Below, piece after piece: positions 1-5,928 of a DNA stretch of 56,412 nt. The notes beneath the pieces are model-generated. The model had not been told where the DNA came from. It ran no database searches and saw only the letters and a list, made by a program, of their open reading frames with translations. A program made the translations under genes and the position numbers. The stretch's first letter is position 1, and every line of letters starts with the position of its first letter. Origin of the DNA: Chthoniobacterales bacterium (GTDB lineage Bacteria; Verrucomicrobiota; Verrucomicrobiia; Chthoniobacterales; UBA10450); assembly GCA_013821455.1 (NCBI GenBank), contig JACDGS010000025.1, forward strand, positions 1 to 56,412, given 5' to 3'.

Positions 1-116
1 CGCCTCGCGTGCTGTGATCGGCGCCTCGCCGATCACTTTCCTGCGTGTCGGATCATGCACAAACTTCGAACGACGCCAAAGTTTGCGGCGAGGCGCCGCA
101 AACAGCACGCGAGGCG
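1..116. repeat. Compound palindromic repeat before nuoK
   Basis: Bases 1-14 are the exact reverse complement of 103-116. Inside each arm sits a further hairpin with a 10-bp stem and 3-base loop: 14-23 with 27-36, and 81-90 with 94-103. Taken whole, bases 1-36 and 81-116 are reverse complements except for the four bases nearest the middle of each small stem, which read GATC on the left and TTGC on the right and change on both sides of the stem so that pairing is kept. The centre (37-80) is unpaired. This is the layout of a paired REP/BIME-like element or a structured RNA. No second copy was seen in the window, and the left end may continue outside it. Confidence 0.75.
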
Positions 117-136
117 CGTGCGCTCCCCGATCATGA
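2..136 (+). CDS. Possible 3' end of the upstream nuo gene (nuoJ expected)
   Basis: A frame open from the window edge ends in TGA at 134-136. This overlaps the nuoK ATG as ATGA, the same junction used by nuoK/nuoL and nuoM2/nuoN. In nuo operons the gene before nuoK is nuoJ. The 44 visible residues do not look like a NuoJ membrane helix and are encoded by the palindromic repeat, so they may be a repeat-derived extension, or the frame may be meaningless. Confidence 0.2.
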   Translation, partial: ASRAVIGASPITFLRVGSCTNFERRQSLRRGAANSTRGACAPRS

Positions 137-441
137 ATTTGCAAATCTTCCTTATCATTTCCGCCGCGCTTTTTTGCCTCGGTCTCCTCGCCGCGCTCAG
201 CCGGCGTCACGCCATCTTTATTCTCATCGGCATCGAGATGATGCTCGCGGCTGCAGGTTTGAACTTCATCGCCTTCTGGCGCTTCGCTCCGGAACCGGCA
301 CCGCCGACCGGAGTGATGATCACTATTTTCGCCATCGCCATTGCCGCCTCTGAAGCCGCCGTCGGGCTCGCGCTCGTCATCGCCGTTTACCGGCATTTCC
401 GCACCACCAATGTGGACCAGATCGATCAGCTAAAAGGATGA
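133..441 (+). CDS. nuoK: NADH-quinone oxidoreductase subunit K (NuoK)
   Basis: This is a 102-residue membrane subunit of respiratory complex I, in the membrane arm between NuoJ and NuoN, where it forms part of the fourth proton path. Three hydrophobic helices are visible, and helix 2 carries the conserved glutamate in the stretch IGIEMMLAAAGLNFIAF. Length matches the family (about 100). The frame is open further upstream, but the start at 133 is chosen because MNLQIFLIISAALF begins the first helix, as usual for NuoK; the upstream residues are basic and come from the repeat. The stop overlaps the nuoL start (ATGA), so the two are probably translationally coupled. Confidence 0.93.
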   Translation: MNLQIFLIISAALFCLGLLAALSRRHAIFILIGIEMMLAAAGLNFIAFWRFAPEPAPPTGVMITIFAIAIAASEAAVGLALVIAVYRHFRTTNVDQIDQLKG

Positions 442-2450
442 GTGCCTGGATCGTCAGCCACCTCTGGCTCATCCCAATCGTGCCTTTGCTGGCGTCGCTC
501 CTGATTCTCAGCCTAACGAGTTCACGCGGGCGAGCCGGAGCACTTCTTGCGATCACCGGACAGGTTTTGGCGCTCACTCTTTCGCTCGCGGCGTTCTGGT
601 CAACACTGACGACACCCGGCTTTCGCGCCGTCCAGAATTTTACCTGGTTGACCTTTGGAGAGCAGACTCTCCGCCTCGGCCTGCTCCTCGATCCGCTCAC
701 CGCCGTGATGCTCGTGATGATCACGTTCGTTAGTCTGTGGATTTTTGTTTTCAGCGTCGGCTACATGGCGGCGGACAAAAATTTCGCACGCTTCTTCGCC
801 TACCTCTCGTTTTTCTCTGCCGCGATGCTGGGCGTGGTCGTCGCGAACAGCCTGCTGCTGCTCTTCATCTGCTGGGAGTTGGTCGGACTCGCCTCTTACT
901 TGCTCATCGGCTTTTGGATTCACAAACCGAGCGCCGCGGCCGCGGCGAAAAAGGCGTTCATCACCACGCGCATCGGCGATCTCGGATTTTTTCTCGGGCT
1001 GCTCTGGCTCTATGGAAAAAGCGGCACGCTCCTTTTTTACGATGGCGGAAATGGCGCGCTCGAAAGCGCGGCGCTGCTGTCGTTAGGCGCGAGCGCTACG
1101 GCGATCGCGTTGCTGATCTTCTGCGGCGCGGTCGGGAAGTCCGGCCAATTCCCACTGCATGTTTGGTTACCCGACGCGATGGAAGGCCCGACGCCGGTGA
1201 GCGCGCTCATTCACGCGGCGACTATGGTGGCGGCGGGAGTTTTCCTGGTGGCGCGGGTCTATCCGCTCTTCGTTGTAGCCGGGGGCGCTGACCCCGGCTC
1301 GGACGGCCTCAACGCGGCCGTCTACAACGGCACCATTCCGCCGCTCACCGTGGTGGTTTGGATCGGCGTGATTACAGCGCTCATCTCCGCGCTCATCGGC
1401 CTCGCGCAATGGGACATCAAACGCATCCTTGCCTACTCCACGGTGTCCCAGCTCGGGCTGATGATGGTGTCGTTAGGCGTGGGCGGCGTCGCCGCCGGGA
1501 TCATGCATTTACTCGCACACGGATTTTTTAAGGCGCTCCTTTTTCTCGGCTCCGGCTCGGTCATTCACGGCTGTCATGAGGAACAGGACATCAGAAAAAT
1601 GGGCGGCCTGCGCGGTGTGATGCCGGTGACTTTTGTCACCTACGCGATCGGCATGATGGCGCTGAGCGGCGTGCCGCTCTTCTTCGCGGGCGCGTGGACG
1701 AAGGAGGAAATCGTGCACGCGACTTCGCTCTGGCCGGCGTCGCGCTGGCCCTATTTTTTGACCCTCGTCGGCGTCGTCCTGACTGCGCTCTATATGACGC
1801 GACAAATGATTTACGTCTTCTTCGGGCGGCGTCGCGCGGCCGCGGCGCACGCACACGAAAGCTTGCCGATCATGACTTTGCCGCTGGTCGTGCTCGCGCT
1901 TTGCGTAGTGGGATTGAGCGTCGTGCTCACGCCGGTGTGGCCGTGGCTGCACAGCTTCTTGTCAGGCGAACGTGCGCTCGTCGGCGGCGGGAAACTGATC
2001 TCTCCGGTGCTGCTCGTTTCGCTCGCGCTCGTCGCGCTCGGCATTGGACTCGGCATTATCGTCTATGGGCGCGCGACGGAGATCGATCCCCTGGCGCGCA
2101 CCTTCCCGCGCGTTTTTCGGTTCCTCGAGAATCGGATGTGGCTCGATGAACTCTACGACTGGAGCGTGCTCGCGGGCGCGCGTTTCGCCGCGCGGCTCTG
2201 CGATTTTCTCGACCGTTATTTATGGGATGGACTCGTGAGGGGATTGGGCGCGCTTGGCTTTTCGTTAGGCGGCCTAACGAAAAGCTGCGACGAACACGCC
2301 CTCAACGCCGGCGCCGATGACGCCGCCAGCGCCGCGCGCGGTTTCGGTCGCTTCTTTTCCCAGCGGCATTCGGGCCAGGTCCAAACCTATCTCAGCGCGA
2401 TCGCCGTCGGCCTGCTCGCGCTGCTTCTGCTTTACGCATGGCTCACCTGA
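438..2450 (+). CDS. nuoL: NADH-quinone oxidoreductase subunit L (NuoL)
   Basis: This is the distal antiporter-like proton-pumping subunit of complex I, a polytopic inner-membrane protein of 670 residues. Family marks include ELVGLASYLLIGFW near residue 147, the core motif HVWLPDAMEGPTPVSALIH around 240, and the lysine/histidine-lined helices that follow (LAQWDIKRILAYSTVSQLG). The C-terminal part carries the long lateral helix and last membrane helix. At 670 residues it is longer than the common size (about 610), which would suit a complex with an extra NuoM to span. Four exact copies of the 9-mer TCGTTAGGC lie in the gene besides one at 511, and two of them form a 29-base palindrome near the 3' end. 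The stop overlaps nuoM by 13 bases. Confidence 0.96.
   Translation: MSAWIVSHLWLIPIVPLLASLLILSLTSSRGRAGALLAITGQVLALTLSLAAFWSTLTTPGFRAVQNFTWLTFGEQTLRLGLLLDPLTAVMLVMITFVSLWIFVFSVGYMAADKNFARFFAYLSFFSAAMLGVVVANSLLLLFICWELVGLASYLLIGFWIHKPSAAAAAKKAFITTRIGDLGFFLGLLWLYGKSGTLLFYDGGNGALESAALLSLGASATAIALLIFCGAVGKSGQFPLHVWLPDAMEGPTPVSALIHAATMVAAGVFLVARVYPLFVVAGGADPGSDGLNAAVYNGTIPPLTVVVWIGVITALISALIGLAQWDIKRILAYSTVSQLGLMMVSLGVGGVAAGIMHLLAHGFFKALLFLGSGSVIHGCHEEQDIRKMGGLRGVMPVTFVTYAIGMMALSGVPLFFAGAWTKEEIVHATSLWPASRWPYFLTLVGVVLTALYMTRQMIYVFFGRRRAAAAHAHESLPIMTLPLVVLALCVVGLSVVLTPVWPWLHSFLSGERALVGGGKLISPVLLVSLALVALGIGLGIIVYGRATEIDPLARTFPRVFRFLENRMWLDELYDWSVLAGARFAARLCDFLDRYLWDGLVRGLGALGFSLGGLTKSCDEHALNAGADDAASAARGFGRFFSQRHSGQVQTYLSAIAVGLLALLLLYAWLT
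2257..2285. repeat. Inverted pair of the 9-mer inside nuoL
   Basis: GCTTTTCGTTAGG at 2257-2269 is the perfect reverse complement of 2273-2285, with a 3-base centre (14 bp if the C and G beside the middle base pair). It is made of one TCGTTAGGC and one GCCTAACGA. It is in frame and encodes part of FSLGGLTKS. The mRNA could form a strong hairpin about 160 bases before the nuoL stop. Confidence 0.85.
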
Positions 2451-3910
2451 TCGCCGGGCTCATTTTTCTGCCGATCCTGGGAGCGCTCTTTGTCAGCGTG
2501 ATGCCGCCCCCATATGCGCGTGCTGTCGCGCTCGGTTGCAACCTGCTCACCGCGGCGTGCGCCTTGATGCTCTGGCACGGCTTCGATCCCGCGGTCGCGG
2601 GTTTGCAAATGGTCTCCTACCACGAATGGATTCCGGCGATCGGGGCGAAGCTTTTGGTTGGGATCGATGGCCTGAGTTTGCTCCTCGTTCTTCTGACCTC
2701 GCTTGTCTTTCCTTTCGCGCTGCTCGCGCAACGGATGGAGCGCGGCTTCTGCGCGCTCATGCTTCTGATGCAGGCGGCGCTCTACGGCACCTTCACCGCG
2801 CAGAATTTTATCCTCTGGTTTTTGTTCTACGAGATGAGCCTGGTCCCGACTTTTCTGCTCATCAAAATCTGGGGTGGAAAAAATCGCGACCGCGCGGCGA
2901 CGAAGTTTTTCCTCTACACCTTCCTCGGCAGCGTCGCGATGCTGCTCGCGTTTCTTGGGATTTATCTCGTTAGGGGAACATTCGACTTCACGGCGCTGGC
3001 CTCGTTAGGCAAAGCCGGCTTGCTCTCGGGCGACGTGCGCTGGCTCGCCTTCGCGGGAATCTTTCTCGGGCTCGCGGTGAAGGTACCGCTCTTCCCTTTT
3101 CACACCTGGCTGCCCGATGCCTATGAAGCCGCGCCGACTGGCGTCGCGATGGTGATGACGGGCGCGCTTTCCAAGATGGGCGTTTACGGATTCATCCGCC
3201 TCTTGCTGCCGCTTTTCCCTAACGAAATCAAAATCCTCGGTCCGTGGCTGCTCGGGCTGGCGGTTTGCTCGATCGTTTTTTCATCGTTAGCCGCCTGGGC
3301 GCAGTCGGATTTGAAACGAATGGTCGCTTACCTTTCGATCAATCATCTCGGTTACTGCATGCTCGGGCTTTTCGCCGTGACCGCGACACGAGCTGTCCCG
3401 CCTAACGAGGCCCAGGCCGCTTTGGGCGGAGTCTTTCTGCAGATCTTTAATCACGGGCTAACGGCGGCGGCGCTCTTCTACTTTGTCGGCCTGCTCGAAC
3501 AACGGCGCGGCGCGCGCAGCCTCGGCGACTTCGGAGGACTGATGCAGCGGATGCCGCTCCTTTGCGGTTGGATGAGTGTGGCCATGTTCTCATCGTTAGG
3601 CTTGCCCGGGCTAAATGGCTTCGTCGGCGAATTCCTCATCTTCAAAGGCTCCTTCGCCCTCGCCGCAGGTTTCACCGCCGTCGCTGTCCTCGGCCTTCTC
3701 ATCACCGCAATCGTTTTTCTGCGTGCGCTGCAAGGGCTCTTCAGCGGACCGCTCGCGGAAGGCTGCGCGACCTTACCCGACCTGCGTCTCAGCGAGAAAT
3801 GGGTCGTCGTTCCGGTGACGCTGCTCATGTTCGCCCTCGGCCTCGTCCCGCAATTCGCCTTCACCATCTTCAACTCCACCGTGGTGCAGATGGCGCGATT
3901 GTTAGGCTAA
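2438..3910 (+). CDS. nuoM: NADH-quinone oxidoreductase subunit M, first copy (NuoM1)
   Basis: This is an antiporter-like proton-pumping subunit of complex I, 490 residues and about 14 membrane helices. The conserved glutamate helix reads FYEMSLVPTFLLIKIWGG near residue 130, and the canonical motif FHTWLPDAYEAAPTG sits near 217, with the LPDA signature intact. The AWAQSDLKRMVAYLSINHLG segment near 290 matches the family lysine helix. It is the more standard of two NuoM proteins in this operon. The gene ends TTG TTA GGC TAA, a near copy of the window's 9-mer. The next gene (GTG start) begins 6 bases after the stop. Confidence 0.95.
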   Translation: MAHLIAGLIFLPILGALFVSVMPPPYARAVALGCNLLTAACALMLWHGFDPAVAGLQMVSYHEWIPAIGAKLLVGIDGLSLLLVLLTSLVFPFALLAQRMERGFCALMLLMQAALYGTFTAQNFILWFLFYEMSLVPTFLLIKIWGGKNRDRAATKFFLYTFLGSVAMLLAFLGIYLVRGTFDFTALASLGKAGLLSGDVRWLAFAGIFLGLAVKVPLFPFHTWLPDAYEAAPTGVAMVMTGALSKMGVYGFIRLLLPLFPNEIKILGPWLLGLAVCSIVFSSLAAWAQSDLKRMVAYLSINHLGYCMLGLFAVTATRAVPPNEAQAALGGVFLQIFNHGLTAAALFYFVGLLEQRRGARSLGDFGGLMQRMPLLCGWMSVAMFSSLGLPGLNGFVGEFLIFKGSFALAAGFTAVAVLGLLITAIVFLRALQGLFSGPLAEGCATLPDLRLSEKWVVVPVTLLMFALGLVPQFAFTIFNSTVVQMARLLG

Positions 3911-3916
3911 AATAAC

Positions 3917-4483
3917 GTGAGCAAAGAGATCATTCCCGCCGGCTCCATCGCCGAGGCGATCCACATCTTTCGCGAGCAGAAAGTCATGCTCGATTTTGAT
4001 CTCGCGGCTCTCTACGGCGTTGCCACGAGGGTCTTGAATCAGGCCGTCCAGCGAAATCGTGACCGATTCCCCGATGACTTCATGTTTCAGCTCACTCGCG
4101 CTGAGGTCGAATCACTGATGGATCGTTCAAGGTCACAATTTGTGACCTTGAAGCGCGGTCAGAATATCAAATACCGGCCCAACGCCTTCACCGAACAAGG
4201 CGTGGCCATGCTCTCGAGCGTGTTGCGCAGCGAGCGCGCGGTGAAGGTGAACATCGCGATCATGCGCGCGTTCGTTAGGCTGCGCGAAACGCTGGAAACA
4301 AATCGCGCTCTCGCGCAAAGATTCGCCGAACTCGAAAAACGCGTCGGGAAACACGACAGCGAAATCGCGGACATCATCGACGCGATCCGGCAGTTGATGG
4401 CGCCCCCGAAGAAGGGCACGCGCGAGATCGGCTTTCATGTCCGCGAAACTTCGCCGCGCTACGGCACGCGCAAACGCCGATGA
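3917..4483 (+). CDS. ORF6N-domain DNA-binding protein inserted in the nuo operon
   Basis: This 188-residue soluble protein has an N-terminal ORF6N domain (about residues 10-100), recognised from IFREQKVMLDFDLAALYGV, LNQAVQRNRDRFPDDFMFQL and the NAFTEQGVAMLSSVLRS block, followed by a short coiled coil (about 120-165) and a basic tail. Homologues are common in phages and scattered in bacterial chromosomes. The domain is thought to bind DNA; its cellular role is mostly unknown. The start is GTG, 6 bases after nuoM1, and its TGA overlaps the nuoM2 ATG as ATGA, so it is transcribed and translated in register with complex I. It contains one exact 9-mer at 4272, so it is not a very recent arrival by that criterion. 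No role in respiration is known. Confidence 0.88.
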   Translation: MSKEIIPAGSIAEAIHIFREQKVMLDFDLAALYGVATRVLNQAVQRNRDRFPDDFMFQLTRAEVESLMDRSRSQFVTLKRGQNIKYRPNAFTEQGVAMLSSVLRSERAVKVNIAIMRAFVRLRETLETNRALAQRFAELEKRVGKHDSEIADIIDAIRQLMAPPKKGTREIGFHVRETSPRYGTRKRR

Positions 4484-5928
4484 TCGCCTGGACGATTTAC
4501 CTCACCTTTGCCGGCGCGATCCTTTTGCTTTTTCTGCCGCGGGCGCTGACTCGCTGGGTCGCGCTGCTCACGGCGGCGAGCGGATTCGTCATCGCGTTTG
4601 CCGCGTTCTTTTTCCGGGACGGCGACTTCGGTCATTTCACCACGATCGTCCGTGTCCCGTGGGTGCCCGCGCTGGGGATGGAATATCATCTCGCGGCCGA
4701 CGGCATCAGCCTAACGATGGCGCTGGTGACCGGGCTGACCGCGGTTTGCGCCGTGCTGTTTTCGTGGCGGGTCGAGGAGCGGCCTAACGAATTCTTTTTC
4801 TGGTTGTTGCTGGTCGTGGGCGGTTCCTACGGCGTTTTCCTGAGCGCCGACCTCTTTCTCTTTTTCGTTTTCTACGAGCTGGTCATCGTTCCGAAATATT
4901 TCCTGATCGCGATCTGGGGATCGACCAACAAGGAATATGGCGCGATGAAGCTGACGCTTTATTCCTTCCTCGGCGGCGCGCTCGTTTTCATTGCCATTCT
5001 GGCGGCCTACACGACGGCGGGATCGCTCGATCTCCAGCAGCTCGCGCGTTTTCAATTTCCCGCGCCGCTGCAGCATTGGGCTTTCCCGGTGCTGTTTCTA
5101 GGCTTCGCCATTCTCGCGGGCATTTGGCCGCTGCACACCTGGGCGCCGACCGGTCACGTGGCTGCGCCGACGGCGGGCTCGATGTTGCTCGCGGGCATCG
5201 TGATGAAGCTCGGCGCGTACGGCGCGCTGCGAGTGGCGATGAATCTCTTTCCGTTAGGCTTCGCCGAGTGGAGCAAATGGATCGCCGTCCTCGCGGTGAT
5301 CGGGATCGTCTGGGCGGCGGCGGTCGCGCTGCGGCAGAACGATCTCAAATTCGTCATCGGTTATTCGAGCGTGAGCCACATGGGTTTCGTCTTGCTCGGG
5401 CTGGCGGCGGCGAATTCGTTAGGCGTGTCCGGCGCGGTTTTGCAAATGTTCTCGCACGGGGTGATCGGCGCGCTGCTCTTCGCGCTCGCCGGTGTCATTT
5501 ATTATCGGACTCACACGCGCAACCTGAACGATCTCGCGACGCTGGGGTTGAGCCGCACGATGCCGTTTGTCGCTTTCGCTTTTGTTGTCGCGTCGGCTGC
5601 GTCGCTGGGGATTCCGGGGTTTAGCGGTTTCGCGGCTGAGATCACTATCCTGCTCGGAGTCTGGAAAGTTTTCCCCGTGGTGGTCGCGATCACAGGCGTC
5701 GGCATGGTCTTGGTGGCGGCGTTTACGCTGCGTGCCATGAGAAAGACATTCTTTAGCGACGCGGCTCGCCTAACGACAACTGTTGCGGTTACGCCCCCGA
5801 TTACTTTCGCGGAGAAATCCGGCGCGAGCCTTCTTCTGCTGGCGACGCTCGGGGTTGGCCTTGATCCAAAACTGCTTCTCGACCGCATCCAGCCCGCGGT
5901 CGAAGCCATGCGTTTTCTGCAGCCGTGA
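4480..5928 (+). CDS. nuoM: NADH-quinone oxidoreductase subunit M, second divergent copy (NuoM2)
   Basis: This 482-residue polytopic protein has the NuoM/MrpD-type antiporter fold. The glutamate helix is kept (FYELVIVPKYFLIAIWG, near residue 130), but the segment that reads HTWLPDA in NuoM1 is HTWAPTGHVAAPTAGSM near 216, so the LPDA aspartate is replaced. The lysine helix LRQNDLKFVIGYSSVSHMG is present. Operons with two NuoM genes are known and have been proposed to build complex I with one more proton-pumping module. Whether this copy is such a pump is inferred from its position and fold. The stop overlaps nuoN by 4 bases. Confidence 0.92.
   Translation: MIAWTIYLTFAGAILLLFLPRALTRWVALLTAASGFVIAFAAFFFRDGDFGHFTTIVRVPWVPALGMEYHLAADGISLTMALVTGLTAVCAVLFSWRVEERPNEFFFWLLLVVGGSYGVFLSADLFLFFVFYELVIVPKYFLIAIWGSTNKEYGAMKLTLYSFLGGALVFIAILAAYTTAGSLDLQQLARFQFPAPLQHWAFPVLFLGFAILAGIWPLHTWAPTGHVAAPTAGSMLLAGIVMKLGAYGALRVAMNLFPLGFAEWSKWIAVLAVIGIVWAAAVALRQNDLKFVIGYSSVSHMGFVLLGLAAANSLGVSGAVLQMFSHGVIGALLFALAGVIYYRTHTRNLNDLATLGLSRTMPFVAFAFVVASAASLGIPGFSGFAAEITILLGVWKVFPVVVAITGVGMVLVAAFTLRAMRKTFFSDAARLTTTVAVTPPITFAEKSGASLLLLATLGVGLDPKLLLDRIQPAVEAMRFLQP

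Follow-up and report, generated by a model that had tools for sequence, protein, structure and literature searches.

The first 128 bases of the window, by which we mean the whole 56,412-nucleotide stretch analysed here (contig JACDGS010000025.1 of the Chthoniobacterales bacterium assembly GCA_013821455.1), hold a pair of inverted, hairpin-bearing units just upstream of nuoK. We interpret this pair as a non-autonomous transposable element of the REPIN or BIME (bacterial interspersed mosaic element) type, a REPIN being a doublet of repetitive extragenic palindromic (REP) sequences that forms a hairpin (Bertels and Rainey 2011, PMC3116915). The element is probably moved in trans by a REP-associated tyrosine transposase (RAYT), and we put the probability of this reading at roughly 0.87. 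It rests on the anatomy of the element, its copy number, the covariation of its stems, a cognate RAYT that carries the same ends, and the presence or absence of the element at the nuoJ–nuoK junction of relatives.

Anatomy of the paired hairpin element

Positions 1–39 and 78–116 are inverted repeats of 39 nucleotides with 85% complementarity. Direct reading of the sequence shows that the arms differ only in their inner stems, GATC/GATC in one and TTGC/GCAA in the other, and that each inner hairpin has a 10-bp stem and a 3-nt loop (stems at 14–23/27–36 and 81–90/94–103); the preliminary description of this DNA, made from the letters of the window, had seen these arms and hairpins correctly. Folding of the 132-nt stretch is far stronger than that of dinucleotide shuffles, both as DNA (z −6.8) and as RNA (z −6.9), with 0 of 200 shuffles as good in either case. 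The span of 1–116 originally assigned to the element captured the arms and missed the remainder: the element ends at 128, and each half contains a second, outer hairpin and a GGGGAGC head. Its left end is cut, as window base 1 is also the first base of contig C30 (the genome amounts to 4.3 Mb in 117 contigs): this copy lacks the head and half of the outer hairpin on the left, which leaves the right three quarters or so of the paired element. Complete copies elsewhere have, in order, T-C-C/T, the GGGGAGC head, the outer hairpin GCACGCG-CCT-CGCGTGC, an inner hairpin whose stem varies and the spacer, followed by the same parts reversed.

Copies in the genome and in relatives

Searching by DNA sequence yielded 103 matches in the element's own genome, all covered by the 40 regions that we retrieved, of which the window is one. 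The fetched copies are mostly pairs whose heads point outward. The high copy number of REPs and REPINs and their arrangement as two inverted units forming a hairpin are both found here. DNA matches were present in 26 of the 39 genomes searched. A covariance model, for which 34 distinct units were used, recovered at least 141 units in the own genome (G000). In four congeners it recovered at least 64 to at least 93, in six further members of the family 0 to at least 64, and in a genome of another family 0; G016 and G030 had no model match. These counts are lower bounds, at most 150 candidates per genome having been scored. Within the window, the only good model matches are the two units of the 1–128 element. 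Genomes holding a close RAYT had more REP matches (a median of 29 in 16 genomes) than those with none (a median of 3 in 9; p = 0.0005, and p = 0.003 after the genus was left out; kinship is uncorrected in both comparisons). The preliminary description had suggested a BIME-like pair of structured units present in many copies with covarying stems, and had named as refuting the lack of any other copy and of conservation in relatives. The many outward-facing pairs, the model counts and the covariation described below bear this suggestion out, and the refuting outcome did not occur.

No direct repeats were seen beside 22 listed pairs (one listed twice), in a flank comparison made without an exact empty site. 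Short elements also lie in frame within coding regions, namely in a DnaE-like PHP domain (L009), a glycoside hydrolase (L028) and UvrA (double; L042).

Covariation of the inner stems

The covariation set comprised units with the inner loop in the expected register (50 hits, 34 of them distinct), drawn from 62 contexts with the outer hairpin. Among the 34 distinct units, two-sided changes occurred at 8 of the 10 pairs of the inner helix, 64 cells were changed on both sides against a shuffled mean of 15.0, and 95.7% of inner-helix cells pair. The covariation score was 0.306, compared with 0.062 after shuffling and at most 0.046 with the partners slid. The outer helix is nearly without variation inside the own genome. 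The data support preservation of pairing in the inner stems and do not tell selection from templated mutation; most likely, the stems stay paired as only copies able to fold get moved. The difference between the two arms of the window had been taken for a compensating change. Pairing was indeed kept, as the excess of two-sided cells indicates, and the more fitting reading of the difference is that the arms are unlike end units, each paired within itself. We also considered selection for unlike inner stems at the two ends and rejected it: identical stems were found in 0 of 18 own-genome pairs, where 0.9–1.3 were expected, which is not significant.

A cognate RAYT within metH

Pfam Y1_Tnp matched eight places in the own genome. 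At one of them, on contig C56 (L053), a Y1_Tnp domain and methionine synthase (metH) share one open frame, and the RAYT is flanked by the 27-nt outer end of the short elements, matched at 27/27 and 24/24 positions at the two sides. The RAYT search recommended in the preliminary description therefore yielded a RAYT between identical ends, and the association of a cognate RAYT with flanking copies of the same repeat, as in REP and REPIN systems, is provided by the metH RAYT. Against NCBIfam REP_Tyr_transpos, whose cut-off is 80, this protein reached 80.1 bits; scores for domains nested in AlaS were 80.7 (L142) and 86.5 (L174), and those for domains nested in ThrS and RecG were 76.5 and 78.3, just under the cut-off. 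The sole PDB sequence match of the nested-RAYT profile was E. coli TnpAREP (4er8). On contig C13, a RAYT domain and RecG likewise share one frame. In relative G022, a full RAYT element occupies the metH site at which the own genome has a short element. That short element splits metH in two frames (L067 2940–7490, C56), its stop ending the first and its ATG starting the second; the second part carries the full RAYT element. Three classical RAYT genes (C93, C108 and C101; 309–350 aa) lack such ends in the surrounding 1.5 kb or so and are therefore probably not cognate.

On C92 (L055 1367–2157), a RAYT of a second, distant family lies in frame within CarB; its ends are 55-bp, 98% complementary double-hairpin repeats unlike those of the window element; weak RAYT matches in frames of about 1320–1390 residues, similar to the CarB case, occur in many family genomes. 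On C65 (L056 19–1926), a HisC-like aminotransferase frame runs on into a C-terminal Y1_Tnp domain.

The element has two inverted half-units around a short spacer, each made of an outer REP-like hairpin with its GGAG head and an inner variable hairpin, and the findings suggest that these half-units serve as the substrate of a Y1 HUH transposase. The RAYT would recognise the hairpins and the head, cut single-stranded DNA at the hairpin ends and mobilise full or short copies, the latter in trans. The parent transposon has the same ends around a RAYT, with a full copy in frame in metH and a related one in recG, and the window copy landed between nuoJ and nuoK, breaking no protein. For REPs, the dinucleotide to be cleaved, often CT, is described as chosen under the guidance of the tetranucleotide that lies 5′ of the hairpin (PMC8266576). 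The heads of the present element follow TCT or TCC, which would fit a GGAG guide keeping A3 and G4. We infer that the metH RAYT recognises and cleaves these ends, that the route is single-stranded and that the insertion has little effect on nuoK.

RAYTs nested in host genes across Verrucomicrobiota

A profile of three nested RAYTs matched 65 of the 83 family genomes at 1e-10, a count biased only through the query profile. Among the listed rows, 69 reached at least 180 bits, 61 in open frames of at least 400 residues and 8 in frames of 211–271. From a scan of 84,980 species genomes, 79 loci were kept, nearly all in Verrucomicrobiota (one was in Kiritimatiellota and one in a plain ‘bacterium’); their ranking followed similarity to the three nested queries, which biases the set towards this subfamily. 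Clustering of the upstream/downstream flanks pointed to a small number of hosts, with AlaS 36/41, RecG 32/31, one MetH site 16/14, another MetH site 6/7 and ThrS 4/4, in a set that mixes 9 earlier loci, 30 family loci and the 79 loci of the species scan, some from the same genome. PriA was a host once (L110). Pfam confirmed the split hosts.

The nested alaS was the only AlaS found in 15 of the 15 genomes behind the named nested loci. In single-insert cases, its Pfam profile is interrupted near 374–380, with all parts in one open frame. Two RAYTs at different sites in one AlaS frame were observed in L136 and L178. In a phylum-wide sample, alaS was matched in 150 of 288 genomes, mostly in frames of about 880–1000 aa, so that insertion in alaS is a minority state; these lengths include upstream read-through and are not counted as proof. 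An AlphaFold model of the AlaS of L142 (labelled Methylacidiphilum) is of moderate quality (mean predicted local distance difference test score, pLDDT, 69; predicted template modelling score 0.38) and was used for outline only. It predicts the RAYT as a folded block at about 420–560 between stretches with pLDDT under 50 that match the hairpin-encoded peptides. Foldseek on this model returned AlaRS entries first and 4er8 at 2.9e-4.

RecG was found in 75 of the 83 family genomes (78 rows), with 31 rows of 832–989 residues, 32 of 686–804 and 15 shorter or cut by contig ends. In the 30 recG loci that were read, the full inserts all lie at one loop. This loop is empty in, for example, L202, L204, L207, L208 and L212, holds short in-frame leftovers in L190, L192 and L198, and has both element ends and no transposase in L213. 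The single recG found in the own genome bears the insert.

In a set of 97 rows (E < 1e-40, at least 130 residues, duplicates removed), which also served for the tree, two histidines and the tyrosine were kept in 92 domains, 87 of the 91 nested ones among them; the HUH pair and catalytic tyrosine of IS200/IS605 (Y1 HUH) transposases are thus present. The ratio of nonsynonymous to synonymous substitution rates (dN/dS) was 0.03–0.20 in 17 of 23 pairs, synonymous sites being saturated in the other 6. At the 91 RAYT loci with the required 120 nt of flank on both sides, the inverted repeat score was at least 12 in 87 (80 of 200 mismatched controls) and at least 20 in 77 (24 of 200); the high control scores reflect similar ends in related species. 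A tyrosine transposase gene between long terminal inverted repeats (TIRs), as in TIRtrons with their TIRYT transposases, is thus what most of these loci contain. In the tree, RAYTs group by host site (19 changes against a shuffled mean of 52), the branches with good support require a minimum of 4 changes for RecG and of 9 for the main AlaS site, and stand-alone RAYT copies fall inside the RecG and MetH groups. The pattern therefore points to RAYTs mostly inherited in place, with repeated entry into and escape from the same sites, and the counts alone do not separate gains from losses in the host-site changes.

The nuoJ–nuoK junction

We inspected the junction upstream of nuoK in 19 relatives, reading its state by eye from the sequence. 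It is empty in 8, with nuoJ running directly into nuoK, including congener G004 (L228), and holds a REP-type element in 6, as a pair in L225, L226, L229, L234 and L238 and as a single unit in L230. The remaining 5 (L231, L232, L235, L241 and L242) have an unrelated AT-rich inverted repeat (gttaaa...tttaac), apparently of another mobile repeat family. From these states it follows that the element is an insertion and not a conserved nuo signal; the junction is a site tolerating insertions rather than a conserved regulatory signal. The stem sequences of the junction elements in relatives differ from those of the own copy, and three of the congeners (L225, L226 and L229; G001–G003) have GTAG as the head.

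The preliminary description had placed the element directly before nuoK inside the nuo operon. The first part holds, as nuoK begins at 133; the element itself is a tenant of the junction that a congener lacks, and the window contains no nuoJ. The assembly has one nuoJ and one nuoH, both on C80, where the nuoJ sits beside another element copy. A nuoJ adjoining the window is thereby ruled out in the assembly, and the missing upstream neighbour of the window was therefore not assembled; judging from relatives, nuoJ would lie upstream of the window element. In the second nuo cluster, on C80, nuoJ and nuoK are separated by an element (L066 5233–5350) whose left unit is clear and whose right side is degenerate. 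In the window, plus-strand frame 1 of the element is open from base 1 into nuoK, and no ribosome site is recognisable between the element and nuoK.

Further features of the window

The coordinates of the element and of nuoK are collected in Table 1.

Table 1. Parts of the paired hairpin element and the adjoining gene, in window coordinates.
Feature	Position	Strand	Basis
Paired-hairpin mobile element (REPIN/BIME-type doublet), right ~3/4	1–128		sequence, copies, fold
Left outer hairpin, 3′ remnant (complete elsewhere: GGGGAGC + GCACGCG-CCT-CGCGTGC)	1–12		model match cut at end
Left inner hairpin, 10-bp stem GTGATCGGCG / CGCCGATCAC, loop CCT	14–36		sequence, model match
Spacer between half-units, differs from copy to copy	37–80		copy comparison
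Right inner hairpin, 10-bp stem GTTTGCGGCG / CGCCGCAAAC, loop AGG	81–103		sequence, model match
Right outer (REP-like) hairpin GCACGCG-AGG-CGCGTGC, nearly invariant in own genome	105–121		copy comparison
GGGGAGC head; GGAG tetranucleotide 5′ of outer hairpin; outer flank consensus (G/A)GA	122–128	−	flank comparison
nuoK, 102 aa, PF00420; 4 bases past element	133–441	+	Pfam, open frame

Further along the nuo cluster, an ORF6N-domain protein (PF10543; 3917–4480, plus strand) lies between nuoM-type genes at 2438–3907 and 4480–5925. The octamer CGTTAGGC occurs at 65 places in the window, counting both strands, against 1.6 expected (the first at 511–518 and 1081–1088), and is preceded by T in 55 of them. 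Its density is 1.3–2.9 per kb in eight other stretches of the own genome, about 1–2 per kb in congeners and 0–0.6 per kb in the other relatives looked at. Element L029 has it as an inner stem. The octamer looks like a genus-level word of the uptake type or akin to HIP1.

Alternative explanations

Several points weigh against a mobile REPIN/BIME-type element. Neither a transposition event nor an excision read nor a strain pair was observed, the comparison of relatives giving presence or absence only; the own-genome head is GGAG and not GTAG, though three congeners have GTAG at this junction; the element ends and the lack of target duplication rest on flank comparison, with no exact close-flank empty site; and the contig breaks inside the element. 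The compensatory stem changes, moreover, could have arisen by replication template switching without selection. Template switching across palindromes can rewrite both sides of a stem together, and changes that come as paired blocks, with perfect pairing common, are what it would produce. It bears only on how the covariation arises, however, and leaves the copy number, the constant loop and head and the same-ended RAYT unexplained; as the source of stem pairing we consider it possible but doubtful. The strong RNA fold, the position 4 nt before nuoK and the copy between nuoJ and nuoK in the second nuo cluster could instead suggest a functional RNA of the nuo operon, whose hairpins control translation or stability between the two genes and whose covariation reflects selection for that role. 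Yet the same design occurs at 40 fetched places of the genome, some inside coding frames, and Rfam gave no family at gathering score (three weak hits fell far below). A conserved nuo RNA is refuted by the 8 empty junctions, one of them in a congener, and the 5 occupied by unrelated repeats, and we regard a functional nuo RNA in general as highly improbable. The patchy occupancy and the different REP families at this junction also speak against a domesticated BIME, once mobile and now kept for genome structuring or expression control as proposed for E. coli BIMEs, which we think very unlikely.

For the nested RAYTs, we lean, with little more than even confidence, towards protein-embedded transposons: RAYTs whose hairpin ends are translated as linkers, which sit in frame in loops of single-copy essential or central genes (alaS, thrS, recG, metH and priA) as active-looking transposases fused to their hosts, which have entered the same sites repeatedly, and which seed non-coding pairs such as the one before nuoK. 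The frames might instead be assembly chimeras, decaying pseudogenes or inteins, given that most of the genomes are metagenome-assembled and that purifying selection on the host gene would leave in-frame survivors. We give this little credence: the sole alaS copy is nested in all 15 genomes, the catalytic residues are kept in nearly all nested domains, the computable dN/dS values are low, the same sites recur in many genomes, and Pfam scans of 18 proteins, nested ones included, brought up no intein family.

If protein-embedded RAYT transposons are real, a sole essential host gene would protect the transposase from loss, in a splicing-free counterpart of inteins. The long persistence of REP/RAYT systems, though RAYTs look domesticated, is an open question, and a transposase locked in frame in indispensable genes, from which paired-hairpin copies spread, would be a plausible answer. 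Proteins annotated as AlaRS, ThrRS, RecG and MetH in many Verrucomicrobia contain a transposase domain some 150 residues long, a point of importance for annotation, and the nested RAYT sites mark natural insertion-tolerant sites in host proteins.

Comparison with known systems

REP doublets, REPINs, REP-flanked RAYTs, double-palindromic TIRtrons and REPs inside uvrA- and dnaE-type genes are already known (Di Nocera 2013, PMC3733652; PMC3116915). The openly readable literature that we searched offered no account of such a transposase (RAYT, TIRYT or Y1) sharing a frame with alaS, recG or metH, nor of a whole RAYT transposon in frame within a single-copy essential gene. The nested proteins have no splicing domain or blocks of inteins according to Pfam. 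With IS200/IS605 transposases and E. coli TnpAREP (4er8) they share the single-tyrosine HUH nuclease domain, and differ in their long inverted double-hairpin ends and their in-frame residence in host genes.

TIRtrons resemble the present loci in having a tyrosine transposase (TIRYT) between long TIRs, some of them double-palindromic, with TIR copies occurring as dimers. In the available part of PMC3733652, however, they are described as ordinary genes with flanking TIRs, not frames inside host genes. The motif GGGGWSAS, which that paper gives for some TIRs only, is not matched in full by GGGGAGCG, which agrees at 7 of 8 positions. In-frame palindromic repeats in protein genes are known from the Rickettsia palindromic elements, for which PMC3733652, in the part available, mentions no transposase gene, and whose sequence and head are other than here. 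The same source reports verrucomicrobial REP dimers inside uvrA of Opitutus terrae and REPs in dnaE-type genes of other species, comparable to our short elements in UvrA and a DnaE-like gene; these are short REPs only, and the part available describes no transposase gene inside a host frame.

The outer hairpin at 105–121 and the conserved GGAG head are REP-type features, GGAG standing in place of the usual GTAG of the REP definition (PMC8266576). The GTAG-REP superfamily has GTAG or GYAG, GYRG, GTRG, GTMG or GTGG at one end (PMC3733652); the own-genome head GGAG fits none of these, and the element is therefore not filed under that superfamily by letter. The element resembles REPINs (PMC3116915) in its two inverted REPs, a variable spacer, a single-stranded DNA hairpin, many copies, compensatory changes and a cognate RAYT. 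What differs here is that each half has two hairpins, that the head is GGAG, and that the cognate RAYT lies in frame in housekeeping genes. We place the window pair among the REPINs, as a new member whose half-units have two hairpins and whose head is GGAG.
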